Shown one piece after another: positions 1,676 through 18,009 of a stretch of 25,027 nucleotides of DNA. The stretch covers positions 1 to 25,027 of the IMG/VR virus record IMGVR_UViG_3300020473_000117, one strand, 5' to 3'. A program made the translations under genes and the position numbers. The stretch is from a virus. A model generated the notes under the pieces. It saw only the letters and a list, made by a program, of their open reading frames with translations. It did no database searches and was not told the DNA's origin. Numbering within the stretch: position 1 is the first letter of the stretch; every line of letters starts with the position of its first letter.

Positions 1676-1708
1676 TTTGGGAAAATGAAGAAAGTGTGCT
1701 ATAATAAT
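1676..1708 (+). promoter_or_regulatory. Strong sigma70-type extended -10 promoter (P1)
   Basis: The element begins one base after the terL stop. TTTGGGAAA lies at 1676-1684, containing the -35-like TTGGGA at 1677-1682. TGTGCTATAATAAT lies at 1695-1708, containing TATAAT at 1700-1705 with an extended TGn. The spacer between -35 and -10 is 17 bases. The same layout occurs at 6294-6326 with all the named bases conserved except the one before TATAAT. Transcription would start near 1712, 21 bases before the SD-led ATG at 1733. Confidence 0.75.
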
Positions 1709-1732
1709 AGCATGACTGAAAAGGGGAATACT

Positions 1733-2953
1733 ATGGCAGGATTAACTTCCTTACCACGAAAAATGAATATTAAGGGGCAACCCCACAAACTCGCCTACAT
1801 TACTGAGGCTGAGAGCGATCTCCTGAAATCTAGGGGCGGCGCTGGTAAACCACGCAAAGGAACTAAGGGTGTTCCATCCTATGACTTTGGAGACATAGGT
1901 GTTGATGATTATGATGTAATGGGTCTAGATGCACAAGCCGAAGCTGACGCAGCACAAGAAGCAGCAGATGCAGCATTTGATGATGCTGATATGGGACAAG
2001 ATTTTGATCTAATGAATCAAGCAGCACAAGAAGCAGCAGCAGATCAAACAACAGCACAGCAACTAGATGAAGCAGAAGCTACAAATATAGATGCTTTAAT
2101 AGATCAATTAGCTTTATCTAATCAACTAGGTCAACTTAGTTCAATAGCTAGAGGCACTACTGCTGAAGAACAAGCAAATGCATTGCAAGACGCAATGATG
2201 GGCCGTGGCACCATAGGGTATAATCAAGCTGTAGATGCTGGGTATCCAAGCTTAATTGAACAATCATTAAGAGAATCTGATCTTGCCACGGCAAGGGGAA
2301 TAGAAGGTTTATATGGTCTTAGAGAAGGTCAAGTTACTCCTGCCCCTGTAGGAGGTTTTTCTTACCAAGGACCGGGATCAACTAAAGCAGCAGCTACTGA
2401 GATAGGTAGGGGCGCTGCTACACTTGCTGCTAATTTAGTGGAAATGTATCCTAGTCCCTTAAACATATTAGCTACTATTGCAAGAGAAGAGTTTGATGTA
2501 AAAATACCAAGTTTAAATTTAACAGATAAAGTAACAGGTTATTTTGATAGTTTGACAGAATCTCAAAGAGAAGCAAATATAGCAGCTAGGGGAGAAGCAC
2601 CCCCAACAATATCTGAACAAGTTGCTCCTACTCCACAAAGTTCTGTAGATTATTTTGATGTACCTCCGTCTCAACCACAAAGTTCTGTAGATTATTTTGA
2701 CGCATTAATAGATACTACACCTACTCCCTCTACAGCAGAAGACTTTTATGGTGGTATACCAGATGGCAATGAAATAATTCCACGTATTATTCCTGAAACT
2801 CCTACTGCTACACCAGTTGTAGAAAAAGAAGAAGTAGATATTGCAACTGCAACTCCTCGTACCAGAACACCAGCAACAGATACTTTTAACATTCTTGCAG
2901 GTATATATGGACCTGATGTAGCAGCAAAACTTTTACCAACTAGGATAGTATAA
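1733..2953 (+). CDS. Low-complexity virion-associated candidate between terL and portal
   Basis: This protein of about 406 residues has no assigned function. The N-terminus (about 1-60) looks like a conserved module with GQPHKLAYIT and a Gly-rich GGAGKPRKGTKGVPSY stretch. I recall this from phage genes in the same terminase-portal position. Residues about 65-125 are Ala/Asp/Gln rich. A small Gly/Ala segment follows near 230-260, and the C-terminus is rich in Pro, Thr and Ser. The segment PQSSVDYFD occurs twice, encoded by an exact 26-bp direct repeat. ATG 1733 is chosen because AAGGGG at 1721-1726 sits six bases upstream and the promoter would start the RNA at about 1712. The ORF stays open in frame to ATG 1685 and ATG 1712. 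It overlaps the portal ATG (2953) by one base. A packaged or ejected protein is possible but unproven. Confidence 0.8.
   Translation: MAGLTSLPRKMNIKGQPHKLAYITEAESDLLKSRGGAGKPRKGTKGVPSYDFGDIGVDDYDVMGLDAQAEADAAQEAADAAFDDADMGQDFDLMNQAAQEAAADQTTAQQLDEAEATNIDALIDQLALSNQLGQLSSIARGTTAEEQANALQDAMMGRGTIGYNQAVDAGYPSLIEQSLRESDLATARGIEGLYGLREGQVTPAPVGGFSYQGPGSTKAAATEIGRGAATLAANLVEMYPSPLNILATIAREEFDVKIPSLNLTDKVTGYFDSLTESQREANIAARGEAPPTISEQVAPTPQSSVDYFDVPPSQPQSSVDYFDALIDTTPTPSTAEDFYGGIPDGNEIIPRIIPETPTATPVVEKEEVDIATATPRTRTPATDTFNILAGIYGPDVAAKLLPTRIV
2633..2700 (+). repeat. 26-bp exact direct repeat encoding PQSSVDYFD
   Basis: Positions 2633-2658 and 2675-2700 are identical and start 42 bases apart, so the reading frame is kept (14 residues). 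The repeat lies in the Pro/Thr-rich tail of the gene between terL and portal and looks like a recent in-frame duplication. Confidence 0.9.
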
Positions 2954-5499
2954 TGGCAACAGAACGTAATCCCTTTGATCGTATACCAGAACAGGAAACA
3001 AATGTCGTACCTCTTACTCCTGAGTCAGAAGATATTGATGCTACTTTTGAAGTGGACGATGATGGTAATGTTATCGTTGATTTTTCTGATCCTGTAGAAA
3101 TGGAAGCCTCTGAAGATATTGCTGAATGGTATGGCAATATGGCAGAGGATATGGACGAAGATGATCTAGTAGATATTGCCAATGATGTGATAGAAAACTT
3201 TGAGGCTGATAAAGATTCCCGTGCTGAATGGGAGTCAATGTTTGAACGTGGCTTTGATCTGCTGGGCCTGAAGCTTGAACAGGGTTCCGAACCCTTTGAG
3301 GGTGCTTGCACTGCTGTACATCCCCTATTGATTGAGTCGGCAGTCAAGTTTCAATCCAAGGCATCTGGTGAATTGTTTCCTGCTAATGGTCCTGTAAAAG
3401 CTAGAATACTTGGTAAGTCCACACCAGAAAAAGAATTACAAGCTAATCGTGTGCAGAACTTTATGAATTATCAGGTAACGGAACAGATGCCTGAATACTT
3501 TGATGAGTTTGAAAGGATGTTGTTCCATCTACCGCTGATTGGTTCTGCATTTAAGAAGCTGTACTATGATGCTACTGTAAAGCGTCCCAAGTCAGAATTT
3601 ATTCCCATAGATCAGTTCTATGTTTCTTACTATGCAACTGATCTTTCTAATGCAGATCGTTATACACATGTAATCTATCGTAGTCCTATAGAACTACAAA
3701 GAGATATGAGAGCCGGTGTATATGGAGATGTTGAGCTTGGTGATCCATCTTCTTATCCTAGCACTTCGTTTAGCGAAAAGATGGATACGATTATTGGTTT
3801 GTCTCCTATGTCAGATCATGATCCGCAGTATGTTCTTCTGGAACAGCATTGCTATCTTAATATTGAAAATGAAGATGAAGCCTGTCCCTATATCGTAACT
3901 GTTGAACAGCAGTCCAGACAGGTGTTAAGTATTCGTAGAAACTACAAGCAAGATGACCCGAACAAAGAAAAAGTAAATCACTTTGTACATTATAGATTTG
4001 TTCCCGGCTTTGGTTTTTATGGATTGGGCCTTATTCATTTCCTTGGCAATCTAACAATGAGTGCAACGGCAGCTATGCGTTCCCTCATAGATGCTGGACA
4101 GTTTGCCAATTTACCGGGAGGATTTAAGGCCAAGGGAGTCAGGATGGTTGGTGACAATGATCCTATATCTCCCGGCGAGTTCAAGGAGGTTGAGGCAACT
4201 GGTGTAGATTTATCAAAGGCTATTGTTCCCCTTCCCTATAAAGAGCCTTCCTCTACTCTATTCCAAATGTTGAATTTCGTGGCTACTGCTGGTCAGAAGT
4301 TTGCGGACAGCACGGAGCAAGTTATCTCTGATGCTGCCTCCTATGGACCCGTTGGAACTACTATGGCCCTGCTAGAAGCAAGTAGTAAGTTCTTTACAGC
4401 AATTCACAAACGAGTACATAAATCTCAGAAAGATGAGTTCCGTATTCTTGCTCGTATTGACTATGATTATCTTCCTGATGAATATCCATATGATGTTCCT
4501 TATGAAGATCGTAGTATATTTAAAAAGGACTTTGATGGCCGTATAGATATTATTCCAGTATCTGATCCTAACATTCCCAGCAATGCACATCGTATGATGA
4601 TGGCTAACATGGCGTTACAGATGGCGCAGCAATCACCACCGGGAATGTTTAATCTAGAAGCATTAAATAGAACAATTCTTAATGCCTCTAATATGCCTAA
4701 TGCGGATGAAATACTTCCGCCTAAAATTGAGCCTAAAGCAATGGATCCGGTATCTGATATTATGGCAGCAACGAAAGGCGTTCCTATTGCAGCCTTTCCC
4801 GGTCAGAACCATGATGCACACATACAGGTAAAGATGTCTTATCTGCAAGACCCCATCAATGGTGCTAATCCAATTATGGAACGTGTAGCCCCTATTATTC
4901 AGGCTAATATTCAAGAACACTCCGTGATGAAGTATCAGGAACAGATGAGTGGTATTGCAAATCAAATAATGCAACAGGCTCCAGAACAGATGAATAATCC
5001 TGCTGCTGCTGAAATGGCTATGGCACAGGCAGCACAGCAAGTGCTTAATGCTAATCAGGCAATGGGTATGGCCCAATCACCGGAACAGCAACTGGTATCT
5101 CTGGAACAGGCCAAGGTTGAACTTGAGAAACAGAAGCTTCAGGCAGATACAGCAACCAATGCAGCAGAGCTTGAACTGAAAAATAAGAAGCTAGAGCTTG
5201 AAGAAAATGAACAAATCATTGGTATGATGAAAGCAACTGCAACTGATAATCTTAAACGTGATACTTCAGAAGCTAATCGTTCCAGTAAGGAAAAATTAAA
5301 ACAAATGGAACTGATGACAAAAGCAATGATTGAAGAGTTTAAATTAAATAAAGAAGATGAACGACAGGCTATACAAAATGTAAAAGAAATGCTTGATAAA
5401 GAAATGCAAACAAAGGCAGATATAGATGCACAGGCTTTGAATGCTCTTGTGCAAATGGCTGTTCAACAACAGGAGATAATCAATGATGAAGAAAGGTAA
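2953..5499 (+). CDS. Portal protein, P22-type with long C-terminal coil
   Basis: The portal forms the dodecameric ring at the unique capsid vertex through which DNA enters and leaves. The protein has 848 residues, longer than the P22 portal (about 725). An acidic N-terminus (about 1-95) is followed by the conserved core. The core includes the segment MRSLIDAGQFANLPGGFKAK near 374-393 and a wing/clip-like region around 440-560 (for example DAASYGPVGTTMALLEASSK). From about residue 690 to the end the chain is almost entirely Gln/Glu/Lys/Ala-rich helix, which fits the C-terminal barrel of P22-like portals. I recognise it as the portal type usual in marine P22/SU10-like phages. The ATG overlaps the stop of the previous gene (ATAATG), suggesting translational coupling. 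The stop overlaps the next gene by 17 bases. Confidence 0.92.
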   Translation: MATERNPFDRIPEQETNVVPLTPESEDIDATFEVDDDGNVIVDFSDPVEMEASEDIAEWYGNMAEDMDEDDLVDIANDVIENFEADKDSRAEWESMFERGFDLLGLKLEQGSEPFEGACTAVHPLLIESAVKFQSKASGELFPANGPVKARILGKSTPEKELQANRVQNFMNYQVTEQMPEYFDEFERMLFHLPLIGSAFKKLYYDATVKRPKSEFIPIDQFYVSYYATDLSNADRYTHVIYRSPIELQRDMRAGVYGDVELGDPSSYPSTSFSEKMDTIIGLSPMSDHDPQYVLLEQHCYLNIENEDEACPYIVTVEQQSRQVLSIRRNYKQDDPNKEKVNHFVHYRFVPGFGFYGLGLIHFLGNLTMSATAAMRSLIDAGQFANLPGGFKAKGVRMVGDNDPISPGEFKEVEATGVDLSKAIVPLPYKEPSSTLFQMLNFVATAGQKFADSTEQVISDAASYGPVGTTMALLEASSKFFTAIHKRVHKSQKDEFRILARIDYDYLPDEYPYDVPYEDRSIFKKDFDGRIDIIPVSDPNIPSNAHRMMMANMALQMAQQSPPGMFNLEALNRTILNASNMPNADEILPPKIEPKAMDPVSDIMAATKGVPIAAFPGQNHDAHIQVKMSYLQDPINGANPIMERVAPIIQANIQEHSVMKYQEQMSGIANQIMQQAPEQMNNPAAAEMAMAQAAQQVLNANQAMGMAQSPEQQLVSLEQAKVELEKQKLQADTATNAAELELKNKKLELEENEQIIGMMKATATDNLKRDTSEANRSSKEKLKQMELMTKAMIEEFKLNKEDERQAIQNVKEMLDKEMQTKADIDAQALNALVQMAVQQQEIINDEER

Positions 5500-5668
5500 A
5501 GGATATCCTTTTCATGTAAAGGATACTCAAAAAAGTTATGGAGATGCCTATGCTCAAGACGTTACGGGTGGTCGTGCCATTCGTAGTGAGCTAAACCAAT
5601 GGGAAGATGATTCTTGGAAGGCACCGAAACCAATTAAACCTTCTCGCAAAAGCACCATCTATAACTAA
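5483..5668 (+). CDS. Small conserved phage protein after the portal
   Basis: This is a 61-residue protein of unknown function. It is hydrophilic, with a basic start (MMKKGKGYPFHV), a central AYAQDVTGGRAIRSELNQW segment and a basic Pro-rich end (KAPKPIKPSRKS). GGAG at 5472-5475 lies seven bases upstream of ATG 5483. A second ATG follows at 5486. It overlaps the portal reading frame by 17 bases, so translation is probably coupled. Small proteins are common here between portal and chaperonin genes. A virion or assembly role is inferred from position only. Confidence 0.7.
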   Translation: MMKKGKGYPFHVKDTQKSYGDAYAQDVTGGRAIRSELNQWEDDSWKAPKPIKPSRKSTIYN

Positions 5669-5670
5669 GA

Positions 5671-5865
5671 ATGGAAATTTGGGACGAGGTAGTACAAGAG
5701 TATAATGAAGAGATTAATAAGTTGCGACTAGCATTAGGTAATGGTAGTGCTGAAGACTACCCACACTACAGGCAACTTGTTGGTTCTATTTCTAGCCTTG
5801 AGTGGGCCAGAGATAATTTAACAGAAATAATTAAAAAACGAATATATATGGAGGACGAAGACTAA
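5671..5865 (+). CDS. Small helical protein, function unknown
   Basis: This 64-residue acidic protein is probably helical. It has two amphipathic stretches (IWDEVVQEYNEEINKLRLAL and a second around SLEWARDNLTEIIKKR) joined by a short GNGSAEDYPHY linker. The pattern suggests a helical hairpin or small coiled coil. No Shine-Dalgarno site is clear. The gene starts two bases after the previous stop and ends two bases before the co-chaperonin gene, so it is part of the same operon. I recognise the general type from phage portal neighbourhoods but know no function. Confidence 0.7.
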   Translation: MEIWDEVVQEYNEEINKLRLALGNGSAEDYPHYRQLVGSISSLEWARDNLTEIIKKRIYMEDED

Positions 5866-5867
5866 CA

Positions 5868-6293
5868 ATGCAACAAGTAGGTTTAGGTGGCGCACTAAAA
5901 AATGATATGTGGATAACTGAGGATGACGCCCCCGATCCAAGTCCACTACCCACTCTACCGGGATTTCACGTTTTAGTGCGCCCCGTTTCAGTAAAGAGTA
6001 TAACCAAAGGCGGTATTCTTATACCGGATTCAACCAAGGATGATATGTCATATCTCACCACTGTCGCACAGGTTCTAGCGTTAGGAGACTTGGCATACAT
6101 GGATAAAGAAAAGTTCCCCGCTGGAGCATGGTGTAATGTAGGTGACTATGTATGCTATGGCAAACATGCAGGAACTAAACTGTTTTACAAGGGTGTACGT
6201 CTAATACTCTTGTTTGATGATCAGATTATTATGAAAGTAGAGGAACCTAAAGACCTTGATCCAACTTTTAATTTAGGAAAAGGCTCTAGTTAA
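5868..6293 (+). CDS. GroES-like phage co-chaperonin
   Basis: This 141-residue protein has a GroES-like beta-barrel over about residues 28-125. The start of the barrel reads LPGFHVLVRPV. It is followed by SITKGGILIPDST, which aligns with the GroES mobile loop: GGI/ILI plays the part of the Gly-Gly-Ile-Val-Leu segment that docks on GroEL. Later strands include VGDYVCYGKHAGTKL, close to the GroES VGDxVxF segment. By analogy with T4 gp31 it would join the host GroEL chamber to fold the capsid protein. Its place just before the scaffold and capsid genes fits that role. A GGAGG lies 12 bases or so upstream, longer than usual. The N-terminal 27 residues and the C-terminal tail exceed a bacterial GroES (about 97 residues). 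No GroEL gene is seen. Confidence 0.82.
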   Translation: MQQVGLGGALKNDMWITEDDAPDPSPLPTLPGFHVLVRPVSVKSITKGGILIPDSTKDDMSYLTTVAQVLALGDLAYMDKEKFPAGAWCNVGDYVCYGKHAGTKLFYKGVRLILLFDDQIIMKVEEPKDLDPTFNLGKGSS

Positions 6294-6326
6294 TTTGGGA
6301 AATCTATACTTTTGTGATATAATAAT
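6294..6326 (+). promoter_or_regulatory. Strong sigma70-type extended -10 promoter (P2)
   Basis: The element starts directly after the co-chaperonin stop. TTTGGGAAA lies at 6294-6302, with TTGGGA at 6295-6300. TGTGATATAATAAT lies at 6313-6326, with TATAAT at 6318-6323. The -35 to -10 spacer is 17 bases. It matches the element at 1676-1708 in every conserved position and spacing. Transcription would start near 6330, giving a leader of about 37 bases before the scaffold-like gene. Confidence 0.75.
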
Positions 6327-6366
6327 ATAAACGTAATCGTTTGTGTCGTTAACAACGGAGAATAAA

Positions 6367-7371
6367 ATGAGTAACGAAAATGATGGTTGGGAAACCGTTA
6401 CGATCCTAAAAGATGAACAAGAAAACAAACAAGTTGAATTTGAGATTGAAGAAGAACAAGAAGAAATAAAAGTAGAAGAAGAAGAAGAACAGGAACAACC
6501 GCCTGTTGAAGCTGTACAAGAAGAAGTTCAAGAAGAACCTGTAAAAGAAGAACAGCCAAAAGAACTAGAAGGTATAGAAACTAAAGGTGCTGAAAAAAGA
6601 ATTAGGCAATTAATTAGACAGCGCAAAGAACGTGAAGAACAAATTGAAGCTCTTATGAAACAGAATGAAGAGCTAAAAACAAATCTATTAGCTAAAGATA
6701 ATGAAGTTGATAGCATTGCGACTCGTAGTCTTGACGCTAATGAAAAACAGCTAACTCAAAATATGGAGCTTGCTAGACAAGCTTATATGGAAGCTTTTGA
6801 AGATGGAGACAAAGAAAAAGTTCTTAAAGCTCAAGAGATATTAAATAATGCTCAAGCAGATTTAAAAACTGTACAAACTTATAAAAATAATCTTGCTAAA
6901 AAACTTAAACAAAAAGAAGAGCAAGTAGAGGCTACACCGCAGTCTACTCAAACGCAACAGCCGTCTTATGATCCAAAAGCAAATGAGTGGGCTGAAAGAA
7001 ATCAATGGTTTGGTCAAGATACTATTAAAACAGCAGCGGCTCTTGCGCTAGATGCAGAATTAAAAGAACAAGGATATAATCCAAATGATGAAGAATTTTA
7101 TGAAGAAATTGATCGACGCCTTAAAATGGCCTTTGGTCAAACTTCAGACCGTGTGCAGGAAACTGAGAGACAAAGTAACTCAGGCACGTTACAACCTGCT
7201 CAAGTGGTATCGGGGGCTTCACGCTCGTCTCCGTCCGCAGGAAAAAAAGTCAAGCTCTCGAAAGAAGACGTAAGATTGGCTAATAAATGGGGTATCCCAC
7301 TTGAACAGTATGCTGCTGAGAAGCTGAAGGTATCTTCGGCTGATGGCGAATATACTAACATAAACATGTAA
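6367..7371 (+). CDS. Scaffolding-like protein
   Basis: The protein (about 334 residues) has the build expected of a capsid scaffold that is removed after prohead assembly. The N-terminal 75 residues are very Glu-rich. A long coiled coil runs from about 75 to 190 (for example RIRQLIRQRKEREEQIEALM). A Gln/Thr/Ser-rich linker and a globular part (NEWAERNQWFGQDTIKTAAA) follow. The basic end (KKVKLSKEDVRLANKWGIP) recalls the C-terminal helix-turn-helix by which P22-type scaffolds bind the coat protein. ATG 6367 is preferred over an in-frame GTG at 6343 because GGAG at 6357-6360 lies six bases upstream. Position before the capsid gene supports the call. No sequence signature proves it, so scaffold is a family-level inference. 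Confidence 0.78.
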   Translation: MSNENDGWETVTILKDEQENKQVEFEIEEEQEEIKVEEEEEQEQPPVEAVQEEVQEEPVKEEQPKELEGIETKGAEKRIRQLIRQRKEREEQIEALMKQNEELKTNLLAKDNEVDSIATRSLDANEKQLTQNMELARQAYMEAFEDGDKEKVLKAQEILNNAQADLKTVQTYKNNLAKKLKQKEEQVEATPQSTQTQQPSYDPKANEWAERNQWFGQDTIKTAAALALDAELKEQGYNPNDEEFYEEIDRRLKMAFGQTSDRVQETERQSNSGTLQPAQVVSGASRSSPSAGKKVKLSKEDVRLANKWGIPLEQYAAEKLKVSSADGEYTNINM

Positions 7372-8530: not shown

Positions 8531-9448
8531 ATGGCTATTAATAGAGCTAGTATTGCTAAAGAACTCCTTCCCGGTCTTAACGCCGTTTTTGGGATGGAGT
8601 ATGGAGAGGTTAATAATGAACATGAACCTCTTTATGAGATTGAAAACTCTGATCGTGCCTTTGAAGAAGAAGTTCTCTTCACTGGCTTCGGCACCGCTCC
8701 TACTAAGGGAGAGGGTGCATCGGTTTCTTATGATGACGCACAGGAAAGCTACACGGCCCGTTACACAGCGGAAACCGTTGCGCTTGCTTTTGCCGTTACC
8801 GAAGAAGCGATGGAAGACAATCTTTATGACACGTTCGCTAAACTTCGTGCCCGTGGCCTAGCCCGTGCAATGGCGAACACGAAGCAGGTGAAGGCTGCTA
8901 ACATCTACAACAATGGTTTCTCTGATACCATTGGTGATGGTGCTGCGTTCTTTTCCGCTTCTCACCCAACGATTTCTGATGGCAACCAGTCCAACCTTCT
9001 TGGTGCGGCTGACCTGTCGGAAGCAACTCTTGAAACTGCATTGACCACTATTCAGAAGATCAAAGATGATCGTGGTATTCTGATTGGTGCAAGTGCTGTT
9101 TCTCTGCATATTCCGGTTGATTACTGGGCTGTTGCAGATCGTGTTCTTTCGTCTCCCGGTAACACTCAGACGAGTGCTGCTGATGCGAACCCGAATACGA
9201 ATGCCATTAATGCAACTCGTCATATGGGGATGGTTCCTGAAGGTTTCTACATTAACCGTCGCTTTACTGATACAGATGCATGGTTTCTTAAAACGGATGT
9301 ACCGAACGGCACGAAGATGTTTGTACGGTCTCCGCTTCAGACTAAGATGGAGCCTGACTTTGATACTGGCAATCTTCGATTCAAGGCCCGTGAGCGTTAC
9401 AGCTTCGGCGTTTCGGATTGGCGTAGCTGGTATGGAAGTGCTGGTTAA
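8531..9448 (+). CDS. Major capsid protein (HK97 fold, Mu gpT-like)
   Basis: This 305-residue protein is expected to form the icosahedral shell. Visible features fit a small HK97-fold coat protein. These are an N-terminal arm (AINRASIAKELLPGLNAVFG), an E-loop-like region (EVLFTGFGTAPTKGEGASVS), an Ala-rich spine helix (FAKLRARGLARAMANTKQVK) and the A-domain/P-domain strands. The chain ends with RYSFGVSDWRSWYG, a close match in style to the Mu gpT-like coat C-terminus (FGxxDWRxxxG). The ribosome site GGGAGG at 8518-8523 lies seven bases upstream. C-ending codons are common here compared with the scaffold gene. A strong UUCG-loop terminator follows, as expected for the most abundant virion protein. 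Confidence 0.92.
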   Translation: MAINRASIAKELLPGLNAVFGMEYGEVNNEHEPLYEIENSDRAFEEEVLFTGFGTAPTKGEGASVSYDDAQESYTARYTAETVALAFAVTEEAMEDNLYDTFAKLRARGLARAMANTKQVKAANIYNNGFSDTIGDGAAFFSASHPTISDGNQSNLLGAADLSEATLETALTTIQKIKDDRGILIGASAVSLHIPVDYWAVADRVLSSPGNTQTSAADANPNTNAINATRHMGMVPEGFYINRRFTDTDAWFLKTDVPNGTKMFVRSPLQTKMEPDFDTGNLRFKARERYSFGVSDWRSWYGSAG

Positions 9449-15257: not shown

Positions 15258-15532
15258 TGGCTAGTAATAAAAACGCACTGGCTATGTGTGATGTGTGTGG
15301 GTTTGTATATCCGCATAGAGTAATGCAAATGAATAGCTATGGGATGCTGGTATGCCCAGAAGACTTTGAAGGACAGTTTGATCTGAAGAACCATCCTCAG
15401 AATAAAGTACCTGATGTAAGAGATAATCCAGCTATTCTCAATCCTCGTCCAGATACGGGCGGTAGAAATCTTACATGGAGCGAAGCTTCAAGTACTTGGG
15501 GATCAACAGATAAATATTGGAATCTAATATGA
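15257..15532 (+). CDS. Small CxxC protein of the tail region
   Basis: This 91-residue protein begins with a possible zinc site: MCDVCGFVYPHRVM (CxxC near 11-14), then a third Cys in MLVCPEDFEGQ near 33, with His and Asp nearby as possible fourth ligands. The rest is a conserved run (FDLKNHPQNKVPDVRDNPAI), then LNPRPDTGGRN and a Trp/Ser-rich end. I recall it from tail-fibre neighbourhoods of similar phages with no proven role. The ATG overlaps the previous stop (TAATG) and its stop overlaps the fibre gene (ATGA). A small tail or fibre-joining protein is plausible. Confidence 0.78.
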   Translation: MASNKNALAMCDVCGFVYPHRVMQMNSYGMLVCPEDFEGQFDLKNHPQNKVPDVRDNPAILNPRPDTGGRNLTWSEASSTWGSTDKYWNLI

Positions 15533-18009
15533 GTGACTTAACTGGACAGCTAATATCAAATACATATAAGCAGGTAATACTTGTTAGTTCGTCTGCAAGT
15601 AATACTGGCGTAGATACTTCTCTGAAGGCTGTGCAAACTGGTGATGGAACTAATACTGCCCTGAAGGTAGCAACAAATGCAGTTCAGATTACTGGTGCAT
15701 TGGGAGTGGATGGATCGGTATCTCTGGATGGAAACTTACATGTAGATGATAAAGTATGTGCAAGTTCTTTCTTTGGAGATGGCTCAAACCTTAGTGGTGT
15801 AACCGCAACAATTGCTGGCAATATATCTGTAAGTAATGCCACGGTAGGTGGCACTCTTTATGTTGGCGGCACAGCTACTTTAGCTGGCGCTACACATCTG
15901 CAAAGTACTGTATCAGTTGGTGGGGCCGCACACTTTGGTTCCACGGTAACTGTATCAGGTGCAGCACAGCTTCAAAGTACGGTAACGGCTGTAGGGGCTG
16001 CAACATTTAAGTCTACAGTTACAGTAGAGAATGCAGCAATACTTAAAAATAATGTATCAGTTGGTGGAACATTTGCAGCGGCTGGTGCAGCTACCTTTAC
16101 TTCAAAAACGGAGTTTGACAATGATGTTTCAGTTAGCGGACGTTTGGATGTTGCTTCTTCTGTTTGTATAGGTAATATAGCAAACTTTGCTGACGATGTA
16201 TCGGTAAGTGGTAATGTAAATGTAGTTGGTAATGTAACGGCTGCATTCTTCTACGGAGATGGTTCTAATCTTACAAATGTGGAAGCTGAACTGGGCATTG
16301 CTACAAACATCTCTGTATCAGGATTTATACATGCTGGTGGCAGTGTATCAGTTAGTGGACCATTTAATGTTGTAGGTGCTGCTACATTTAAAGATGATGT
16401 AAGTGTAAGTGGTAATACAAATCTTAGCGGCACAGTCACAGTAGGTGGTGCAGTAAGTCTGGCTTCGACTCTCAGTGTAGGTGGCGCAGCTAACTTTGCA
16501 AGCACAGTAACTATTGCTGGTACTAATGTTCAAGCAGCAAATGCACGGGTATGTGCAAGTGCCTACTATGGAGATGGTTCTAATCTTACAAATGTAGGTA
16601 TCAGTGGAAATGTATCTGTTAATAATGCAACTATTGGCGGAAATTTACATGTAGGCGGAACAGTAACTGCTGTTGGGGCGGCGACATTTAAAGATGATGT
16701 AAGTGTAAGTGGTAATACAAATCTTGGTGGTACAGTAACTGTAGGTGGGGCAGTCAGCCTTGCATCAACTCTTAGTGTGGGAGGTGCAGCAAACTTTGCC
16801 TCTACAGTGACCATAGCAGGGGCTGTGAGCCTTAACTCTACTCTTTCGGTAGGTGGGGCTACTCATCTTGCCAGCACCGTCACAGTGGCCGGAAAAGCCA
16901 TCTTTGAAGACAGTGTGTCTGTAAGCGGTAATCTGGATGTAGGTGGTAATGTTTCAGTTGGTGGAACGCTTTTTGCTGCTGGAGGAATTACTTATGATGG
17001 AGATGTATCTGTTAGTGGTGACTTGGCCGTTGGCGGTAACGTATCTATTGGTGGTACACTCAGCGTTACAGGTGCAGTATCTCTTGCATCTACTCTTAGT
17101 GTAGGTGGGGCAACCAATCTGGGAAGTACTGTTACCGTAGTAGGTGCTGGTACATTTAAAGATAGTGTCTCAGTTTCAGGTAATGTAAACATAGGCGGCA
17201 CTGTAACAGTAGGTGGAGCAGTATCCTTGGCTTCCACATTATCAGTAGGAGGTGCGGCACACTTTGGTAGTACTGTAACAGTGGCTGGTGCAGCAATCTT
17301 TGAAGATGCAGTCTCAATATCTGGGGCAGTAGATATAGCTGGTAATACTTCTGTTGGAGGAACATTCCTTGCAACGGGCAAAGCAGAATTTGAAGATGAT
17401 GTCTCTGTTTCAGGTAACTCAAACTTTGGAGGTACTGTTACAGTAGCTGGTGCAGTAAGCCTGAACTCTACACTTAGCGTTGGTGGAGCATCTAACTTTG
17501 CCAGTACGGTAACAATAGCTGGAGCAGTAAGTCTAAATTCTACACTGAGCGTTGGTGGAGCAACCAATCTTCTTAGCACAGTAACTGCTGCTGGTAATGC
17601 TGGTTTTCTTGGTACTGTAAGAGTATCTGGCAATACGTCACTGGAGGGACAGCTACAACTAACTGAATCAGCGGCTGCTGCTGTACATACCACTGCAATC
17701 AATGGTGTGACATCTGTATCTCTGAACTTTGGTATAGCACAGAACTTCTTTACCTCTGTTACTGCTGCACATACACTGGCACGGCCTACCAATGCAAGAG
17801 TAGGACAAGTGGGTAGTATTCTTTTGATGCAGGATGGTGGCTCTGGTACAGTTGCTTATAATGCCTGTTGGAACTTTATTGGTGGCACAGCCCCAACATT
17901 ATCAACAGGCGATAATGCAATGGACAGATTAGATTACATAGTAGTTTCAGTTTCTTCTGATGATACTGCTGAAAATATTCAAGCAGTTATGACACAAGCT
18001 TATAGTTAG
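15529..18009 (+). CDS. Beta-repeat tail fibre/spike protein
   Basis: This 826-residue protein is built of many short repeats such as TVTVGGAVSLASTLSVGGAA and DDVSVSGNTN, with Val/Ser/Gly/Thr spacing typical of a trimeric beta-helix or beta-prism fibre. Three insertions of the YGDGSNLTNV type (about residues 81, 241 and 346) mark longer units. Repeats run from about 55 to 710. The last 115 residues form a separate domain (HTLARPTNARVGQVGSILLM, then QDGGSGTV) that is shared with the fibre at 21154-22101. The real start is ATG 15529 (ATGA overlap with the CxxC gene). An in-frame TTG at 15517 is not needed. It should contact the host surface or carry the receptor-binding protein. Confidence 0.85.
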   Translation: MSDLTGQLISNTYKQVILVSSSASNTGVDTSLKAVQTGDGTNTALKVATNAVQITGALGVDGSVSLDGNLHVDDKVCASSFFGDGSNLSGVTATIAGNISVSNATVGGTLYVGGTATLAGATHLQSTVSVGGAAHFGSTVTVSGAAQLQSTVTAVGAATFKSTVTVENAAILKNNVSVGGTFAAAGAATFTSKTEFDNDVSVSGRLDVASSVCIGNIANFADDVSVSGNVNVVGNVTAAFFYGDGSNLTNVEAELGIATNISVSGFIHAGGSVSVSGPFNVVGAATFKDDVSVSGNTNLSGTVTVGGAVSLASTLSVGGAANFASTVTIAGTNVQAANARVCASAYYGDGSNLTNVGISGNVSVNNATIGGNLHVGGTVTAVGAATFKDDVSVSGNTNLGGTVTVGGAVSLASTLSVGGAANFASTVTIAGAVSLNSTLSVGGATHLASTVTVAGKAIFEDSVSVSGNLDVGGNVSVGGTLFAAGGITYDGDVSVSGDLAVGGNVSIGGTLSVTGAVSLASTLSVGGATNLGSTVTVVGAGTFKDSVSVSGNVNIGGTVTVGGAVSLASTLSVGGAAHFGSTVTVAGAAIFEDAVSISGAVDIAGNTSVGGTFLATGKAEFEDDVSVSGNSNFGGTVTVAGAVSLNSTLSVGGASNFASTVTIAGAVSLNSTLSVGGATNLLSTVTAAGNAGFLGTVRVSGNTSLEGQLQLTESAAAAVHTTAINGVTSVSLNFGIAQNFFTSVTAAHTLARPTNARVGQVGSILLMQDGGSGTVAYNACWNFIGGTAPTLSTGDNAMDRLDYIVVSVSSDDTAENIQAVMTQAYS
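16384..16725 (+). repeat. Direct repeats of about 300 bp within the fibre gene
   Basis: Positions 16384-16425 and 16684-16725 are identical over 42 bases and exactly 300 bases apart, encoding TFKDDVSVSGNTNL. The following 25-30 residues are nearly the same in both copies but differ at many third codon positions. The YGDGSNLTN segment also recurs at about 16252 and 16567, 315 bases apart. Confidence 0.88.

Follow-up and report, generated by a model that had tools for sequence, protein, structure and literature searches.

A conserved pair of predicted promoters and a covarying crossing-helix leader at structural-gene junctions of uncultivated marine phages

Phage T4 middle promoters pair an extended sigma70 -10 element with a phage-specific box located at -35, and the mRNA leader of T4 gene 32 contains a small pseudoknot associated with autogenous translational repression; both have a likeness in the locus described here. 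A close point of comparison is offered by the HTVC023P-type pelagiphages, with which the phage under study shares homologous core proteins and a common structural gene order, namely terL ... portal ... GroES, scaffold-like and capsid. The capsid proteins of the two groups are about 52-54% identical and the TerL proteins about 40%, and at these levels (about 52% for the capsid) the phage is best regarded as a distant HTVC023P-type relative. In the HTVC023P-type isolates examined the genes of this region abut, with neither promoter nor pseudoknot, whereas the clade of the present phage carries both.

The DNA analysed, hereafter the window, is 25,027 bases long and constitutes the whole of its own IMG/VR record. 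The nearest genome_contigs match was a phage-like contig in a Crocinitomicaceae MAG, which we regarded as binning noise. No tRNAs were found in the window or in six relatives. Positions 15517-18009 hold a tail-fibre-like gene rich in repeats, which gave many overlapping partial matches in a blastn comparison with the relative G009. The predicted promoters and the genes around them are as follows:

102 to 130, + strand: P0, a related predicted promoter 5' of terL (TTGTAA 102-107, 17 nt, TATAAT 125-130)
137 to 1675, + strand: terL, the terminase large subunit gene (phrog_38, E 8.6e-105; PF17289; stop codon 1673-1675)
1676 to 1708, + strand: P1, predicted promoter, TTTGGGAAA-N10-TGTGCTATAATAAT (TTGGGA 1677-1682, TATAAT 1700-1705), conserved in relatives
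1733 to 2953, + strand: gene without assigned family 3' of P1, from the ORF list
2953 to 5499, + strand: portal protein gene (phrog_1216, E 5.6e-35)
5868 to 6293, + strand: GroES-like co-chaperonin gene (phrog_3188, PF00166; stop codon 6291-6293)
6294 to 6326, + strand: P2, predicted promoter, TTTGGGAAA-N10-TGTGATATAATAAT (TTGGGA 6295-6300, TATAAT 6318-6323), conserved in relatives
6367 to 7371, + strand: acidic coiled scaffold-like gene (phrog_28737, function unassigned; ATG 6367)
8531 to 9448, + strand: major capsid protein gene (phrog_371, PF25209), in the downstream part of the putative P2 operon

The gene at 1733-2953 found no match in the PHROG and Pfam comparisons, and has a second in-frame ATG at 1712. 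Two small ORFs separate the portal and GroES-like genes, and two genes of no assigned family lie between the scaffold-like and major capsid genes. A scaffold role for the product of 6367-7371 is suggested by its position 5' of the major capsid gene.

The original prediction described P1 and P2 as identical copies of TTTGGGAAA-N10-TGTGnTATAATAAT with a -35/-10 spacing of exactly 17, each beginning at the base after a stop codon, and this description proved exact: both sites match without mismatch on the + strand, both have a 17-nt spacer, and P1 directly follows the terL stop and P2 that of the GroES-like gene. It had also named P0 as a weaker relative before terL, which was recovered at the positions listed above, and had seen no third copy; indeed no other site exists in the window even at up to 3 mismatches, and 100 dinucleotide shuffles of the window yielded no match.

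Comparison with relatives, which had been proposed as a check, gave a uniform picture. An exact scan of IMG/VR with the 17-base core of the motif detected at least 118 stretches, and of the core matches listed the majority fall at these two places in the gene order, behind either a terL-like end or the co-chaperonin gene. We then extracted the junctions by protein anchor and not by motif, obtaining 79 distinct sequences for the terL junction and 66 for the GroES junction. P1 was present in 76/76 and P2 in 63/63 distinct uncultivated relatives, at a fixed offset, and among the extracted junctions they were missing only from three isolates, HTVC023P, HTVC027P and DSL-LC04. The site starts exactly after the stop codon in 62 of the 63 P2 and 40 of the 76 P1 cases. 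In P2, the columns for TTG, TRTG (outside the R) and TATAAT are conserved at 98-100%, and most spacer columns at 30-65%; throughout the P1 and P2 sites the distance from the -35 to TATAAT is constant and the spacer sequence variable. The TATAAT hexamer occurs in all P2 and nearly all P1 sites, and TRTGn stands directly 5' of the -10 in every extracted site, an element demanded by the search pattern that only the three isolates failed to satisfy. TTG occupies the fixed 17-nt position in all 63 P2 and most P1 sites, with the rest of the hexamer departing from consensus: TTGGGA accounts for 91 of the 139 P1/P2 sites, followed by TTGTGA, TTGCGA, TTGCAT, TTGCAA and others, and none has TTGACA. A few P1 sites diverge further at the -35, and most of the variation stays within TTGnnA. 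By this pattern of conservation the motif is a phylogenetic footprint.

P0 is likewise conserved 5' of terL, in 39 loci of relatives, of which 36 have TTG at the -35. Its -10 lies only 6 nt from the terL ATG, and the same TATAAT-6 nt-ATG arrangement recurs in 34/39 relatives; because of this short distance the terL transcript is probably leaderless. Transcription from P1 would start near 1712, itself an ATG, and that from P2 near 6330. An ATG exactly 6 nt past TATAAT is seen at P1 in 23/76 relatives. The P1-proximal ATG is the start of the next gene in some relatives, and in others it opens a very small ORF that terminates close to the true start.

The original prediction recognized the promoter pair and missed what lies downstream of its second copy. 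In the window's clade P2 is followed by a conserved block, AACGTAATCGTTTGTGTCGTTAACAACGGAG in the window (6330-6360), which ends in the Shine-Dalgarno (SD) sequence of the scaffold-like gene. A conserved hairpin loop in it (nUCGUnA) is complementary to a conserved strand just 5', which gives the leader of about 33 nt two crossing, covarying helices in the order A-B-A'-B', the arrangement of an H-type pseudoknot:

6330 to 6333, + strand: strand A, AACG, pairing with A' at 6347-6350 (covariation)
6334 to 6337, + strand: loop L1, UAAU, of which UAA is conserved (alignment A4)
6338 to 6344, + strand: strand B, CGU-U-UGU, with one bulged nucleotide, pairing with B' at 6352-6357
6345 to 6346, + strand: loop L2, GU, of which U is conserved (alignment A4)
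6347 to 6350, + strand: strand A', CGUU (covariation)
6352 to 6357, + strand: strand B', ACAACG, the final G of which also opens the SD sequence GGAG at 6357-6360

Support for this pseudoknot comes from counts in a sequence-only alignment and from shuffle tests. In the first 40 elements hairpin B (CGUU-U-GU with AC-AACG) was recovered by RNAalifold unaided, two of its pairs having both bases substituted, and B/B' has two pairs with double changes in alignments A3 and A4, the latter built with MAFFT from the sequences alone of 59 distinct elements. In A4, 90.6% of the cells of the pseudoknot are paired, against 26-56% in slid structures; five pairs show double changes, and the 44 double-changed cells compare with a shuffle mean of 14.3 (0/500 shuffles). 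A/A' alone is 94.9% paired, with 32 double-changed cells against 11.9 (0/500), and its pair 2-25 occurs in all four Watson-Crick forms (UA 17, AU 16, GC 12, CG 3). This outer pair is lacking in 11/59 elements and the top B/B' pair in 13/59. In a regex-anchored set of 80, pair 2-25 is Watson-Crick in 68, where permutation gives a mean of 24.4 and a maximum of 38. These shuffle tests are inflated by sequence kinship, a concern answered in part by a count on the tree and by held-out loci. On the GroES protein tree pair 2-25 has five states and 14 changes (by group GC 1, CG 2, UA 8, AU 9). The held-out set comprised 32 loci fetched afterwards, 21 with a readable GroES end, from which 16 representative elements were tested. 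There the leader pattern largely held: 11/16 elements beat their own shuffles at p 0.005-0.04, two further ones show both A/A' and B/B' at p 0.11-0.14, and in the other three the structure is reduced or missing. New pairing combinations also appeared in this set, AGCG/CGCU with CGUUGUA/UACAACG in L602 and GGCG/CGCC with CGUUAG/CUAGCG in L618.

More divergent members retain the arrangement with different letters, such as UUCG/CGAA with CGC-C-UGU/ACA-GCG in L563 and GCG/CGC with CG-A-CCAU/AUGG-CG in L550; A/A' reads GUG/CAC in L547 and AGCG/CGCU in L534. Among 24 divergent elements, 19 have a fold in the A-B-A'-B' order that surpasses almost every shuffle (p 0.01-0.05), and five gave no fold within the set loop limits. 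In L609, L618 and L565, L1 is enlarged by a hairpin-capable stretch and A/A' is retained. The SD sequence, whose first G is reached by B' in the window's clade and whose second G could be covered by further U-G pairing, lies a few nucleotides past B' in several divergent members, so that direct SD pairing is not universal; the SD of these other clades would still fall within the 30S footprint.

Two other structural interpretations were considered. A nested two-hairpin leader (AACG/CGUU plus CGUU/AACG), which is the fold predicted for the window alone and by RNAalifold, a program that cannot draw pseudoknots, on A4, was rejected: covariation is absent from it, and among 40 sequences the pairs that vary are disrupted in 11 and 22. 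Covariation alone would also allow a DNA operator; the one-sided bulge and the place between the -10 and the SD favour RNA.

We infer that both helices are present at the same time. That they are instead mutually exclusive, forming a two-state switch and not one pseudoknot, is possible but somewhat doubtful. The idea arises from members with 5 pairs in A/A' (L518, L543, L581), where an L3 of 0 nt strains classical H-type geometry, and in L581 A/A' alone reaches -6.5 kcal/mol against -1.5 for B/B'. Most members, however, leave 1-2 nt in L3, and in the window A/A' evaluated singly is unfavourable (+6.8 kcal/mol), with B/B' at -3.0 kcal/mol. The single-sequence fold of the window leader is not better than that of shuffles (z -0.94).

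A covariance model of the hairpin alone detected one strong copy of the leader in the window, in each of six relatives and in each of nine further genomes, and none in HTVC023P, HTVC027P or DSL-LC04. P2 and the leader are both absent from 57/57 HTVC023P-like relatives with the same gene order, in which the genes abut. In a more distant group, L332 and its kin, the leader stands behind a different, P0-like promoter, and promoter and leader are therefore separable. Among the 4227 families of Rfam none matched the leader at or above its gathering score, and none matched in eight divergent leader loci; an identity with preQ1-II, the best match, was dismissed at 14 bits (E 4.9, gathering 47), which is chance level. 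Our literature search found nothing relevant on the P1/P2 promoter form or the leader. At the GroES/scaffold-like junction of Planktothrix phage Pag-Yong1 (L590:1040-1095), a hairpin, CGGTTC-ACCCT-GAACCG, abuts the SD and may be a distant analogue.

As to the kind of promoter, it had been suggested that P1 and P2 represent either a shared phage late-promoter form or one tuned for an altered host sigma factor. The first part gains strong support from the conservation of the sites at the two gene junctions, as a predicted promoter form shared by structural genes and 'late' by gene content only. The second is superfluous, since a perfect sigma70 TATAAT with TRTGn is present, TTGACA promoters coexist and no Sigma70_r4 protein was found in nine near-complete relatives. 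In a crude promoter scan of six near-complete relatives, P1 and P2 lie on the structural strand in each genome, and in most of the six TTGACA/TTGACT/TTGACG-N16-18-TATAAT sites occur on other operons. These TTGACA-type promoters elsewhere in the same genomes imply that a normal sigma70 -35 is available and that TTGnnA marks a distinct structural-gene class. We conclude that P1 and P2 are a clade-specific, extended -10, sigma70-type predicted promoter class of structural genes, and presumably active as promoters.

Some TTGACA-type sites are found repeatedly at a single conserved location, preceded by AAAGTYCTTGAC and followed by TATAATATATG; this conserved opposite-operon promoter, AAAGTYCTTGAC...N17...TATAATATATG, lies at L206:14788-14860 in G009, upstream of an Hsp20-like gene, and has equivalents in G001, G003 and G005. 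A phage-encoded sigma factor was rejected on a search of 10 records, nine of them near complete, none of which contained Sigma70_r4 while control genomes were positive; the corresponding search for a single-subunit polymerase (RNA_pol, PF00940) gave no match in the phage, but none in the control either. Among 20 proteins scanned in the early region of one relative no transcription regulator was annotated, and the matches were to replication, nucleotide, lysis, Hsp20, methyltransferase, endonuclease or uncharacterised families. L206:4413-4958 encodes a cell wall hydrolase (PF07486), a predicted endolysin, which thus belongs to the operon on the replication side instead of that of the structural genes.

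A related possibility, which we judge unlikely, is that P1 and P2 depend on an activator, with TTTGGGAAA acting as a box for a phage regulator whose binding substitutes for the -35 contact, in the manner of MotA at the middle promoters of T4. The lack of TTGACA at these sites and its retention by other operons would fit such a box, as would the half-palindromic TTT-GGG-AAA and, in P2, a conservation extending beyond the hexamer (TTTGGGAAA, last A 98%). Yet many members keep the promoter with TTG and an altered remainder (TTGTGA, TTGCAT, TTGCAA, TTGCGA), the flanking AA is conserved at just 59-63% in P1, the T4 MotA box differs in sequence and spacing, and neither a regulator nor a MotA/AsiA-like protein was identified among the proteins scanned.

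On evidence that is comparative sequence throughout, the reading that we favour, with moderate confidence, is that P1 and P2 are extended -10 sigma70-type promoters and that the P2 leader acts in cis to control translation. Both promoters would add transcripts to the structural operon, P1 serving the gene before portal and then portal and GroES, and P2 the scaffold-like gene, capsid and beyond. TRTGn and the perfect TATAAT would do most of the work, the TTGnnA -35 being weak but constrained. The P2 transcript would start with, or soon reach, the crossing-helix element ending at the scaffold-like SD; the fold would be stabilised, most likely by a phage structural protein, hindering 30S entry and thereby matching scaffold output to capsid assembly. 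Control of translation of the scaffold and capsid genes is thus the most likely role of the leader, and repression of scaffold translation by its own product the most likely mechanism. The low stability of either helix by itself in the window fits a fold needing a partner. The first suspect is the scaffold-like protein itself, which in pseudoknot-bearing phages has a basic Arg/Lys-rich KRIRQLIRQRKER segment that is less arginine-rich in relatives without the pseudoknot; on the strength of this segment it is a suspect as ligand and no more.

Two further roles for the leader appear improbable, to the same degree. It could be a processive antitermination signal of the put/nut type for reading the long structural operon, given its single copy per genome, placed where a transcript covering many kilobases begins or close by, with the predicted start only a few nucleotides from strand A at roughly half of the P2 sites. 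But the element is fixed beside the SD of one gene, even where it lies as far as 27 nt from the -10, known put RNAs are larger, and with one copy per genome none opens the P1 and P0 transcripts. Alternatively, it could be a 5'-end stabiliser that slows decay of the capsid mRNA; hairpins at the 5' end of phage transcripts are known mRNA stabilisers, and in roughly half of the loci strand A would begin at +1 or adjacent to it. In the others, however, the element is 14-27 nt from the -10, and the conserved unpaired UAA of L1 and U of L2, with the fixed place by the SD, suggest recognition over mere capping. Finally, that P1 and P2 are a chance likeness of two ordinary promoters without function is scarcely credible: sigma70-like sites are frequent in AT-rich DNA, but the empty shuffles and the conservation of both junctions, with varied spacers, in all distinct uncultivated relatives refute it.

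Beyond translational control by the P2 leader in this clade, we tentatively propose that the leader is a new phage regulatory RNA class, a switch of about 33 nt with crossing helices that would sense a phage or host factor and set scaffold/capsid translation, widespread in uncultivated marine phages and supplied by a promoter cassette that, in the window's clade, was inserted at a single gene junction. These phages, distant kin of the abundant pelagiphages, gain a defined predicted class of structural-gene promoter and a conserved, compact and testable RNA element not in Rfam. RNA-level dosage control of capsid and scaffold is little known, and a 33-nt leader with multiple natural variants is an easy reporter target.

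With extended -10 sigma70 promoters in general, P1 and P2 have in common the TATAAT, the TRTGn, the 17-nt spacer and a weak -35 offset by the extended -10; they differ in repeating a clade-wide TTTGnGA -35 box at two structural-gene junctions. The leader resembles preQ1 and other compact pseudoknot riboswitches in being a crossing-helix leader of about 33 nt adjoining an SD. From the T4 gene 32 pseudoknot it differs in its unrelated sequence and in abutting the scaffold-like SD, with ligand binding only proposed.
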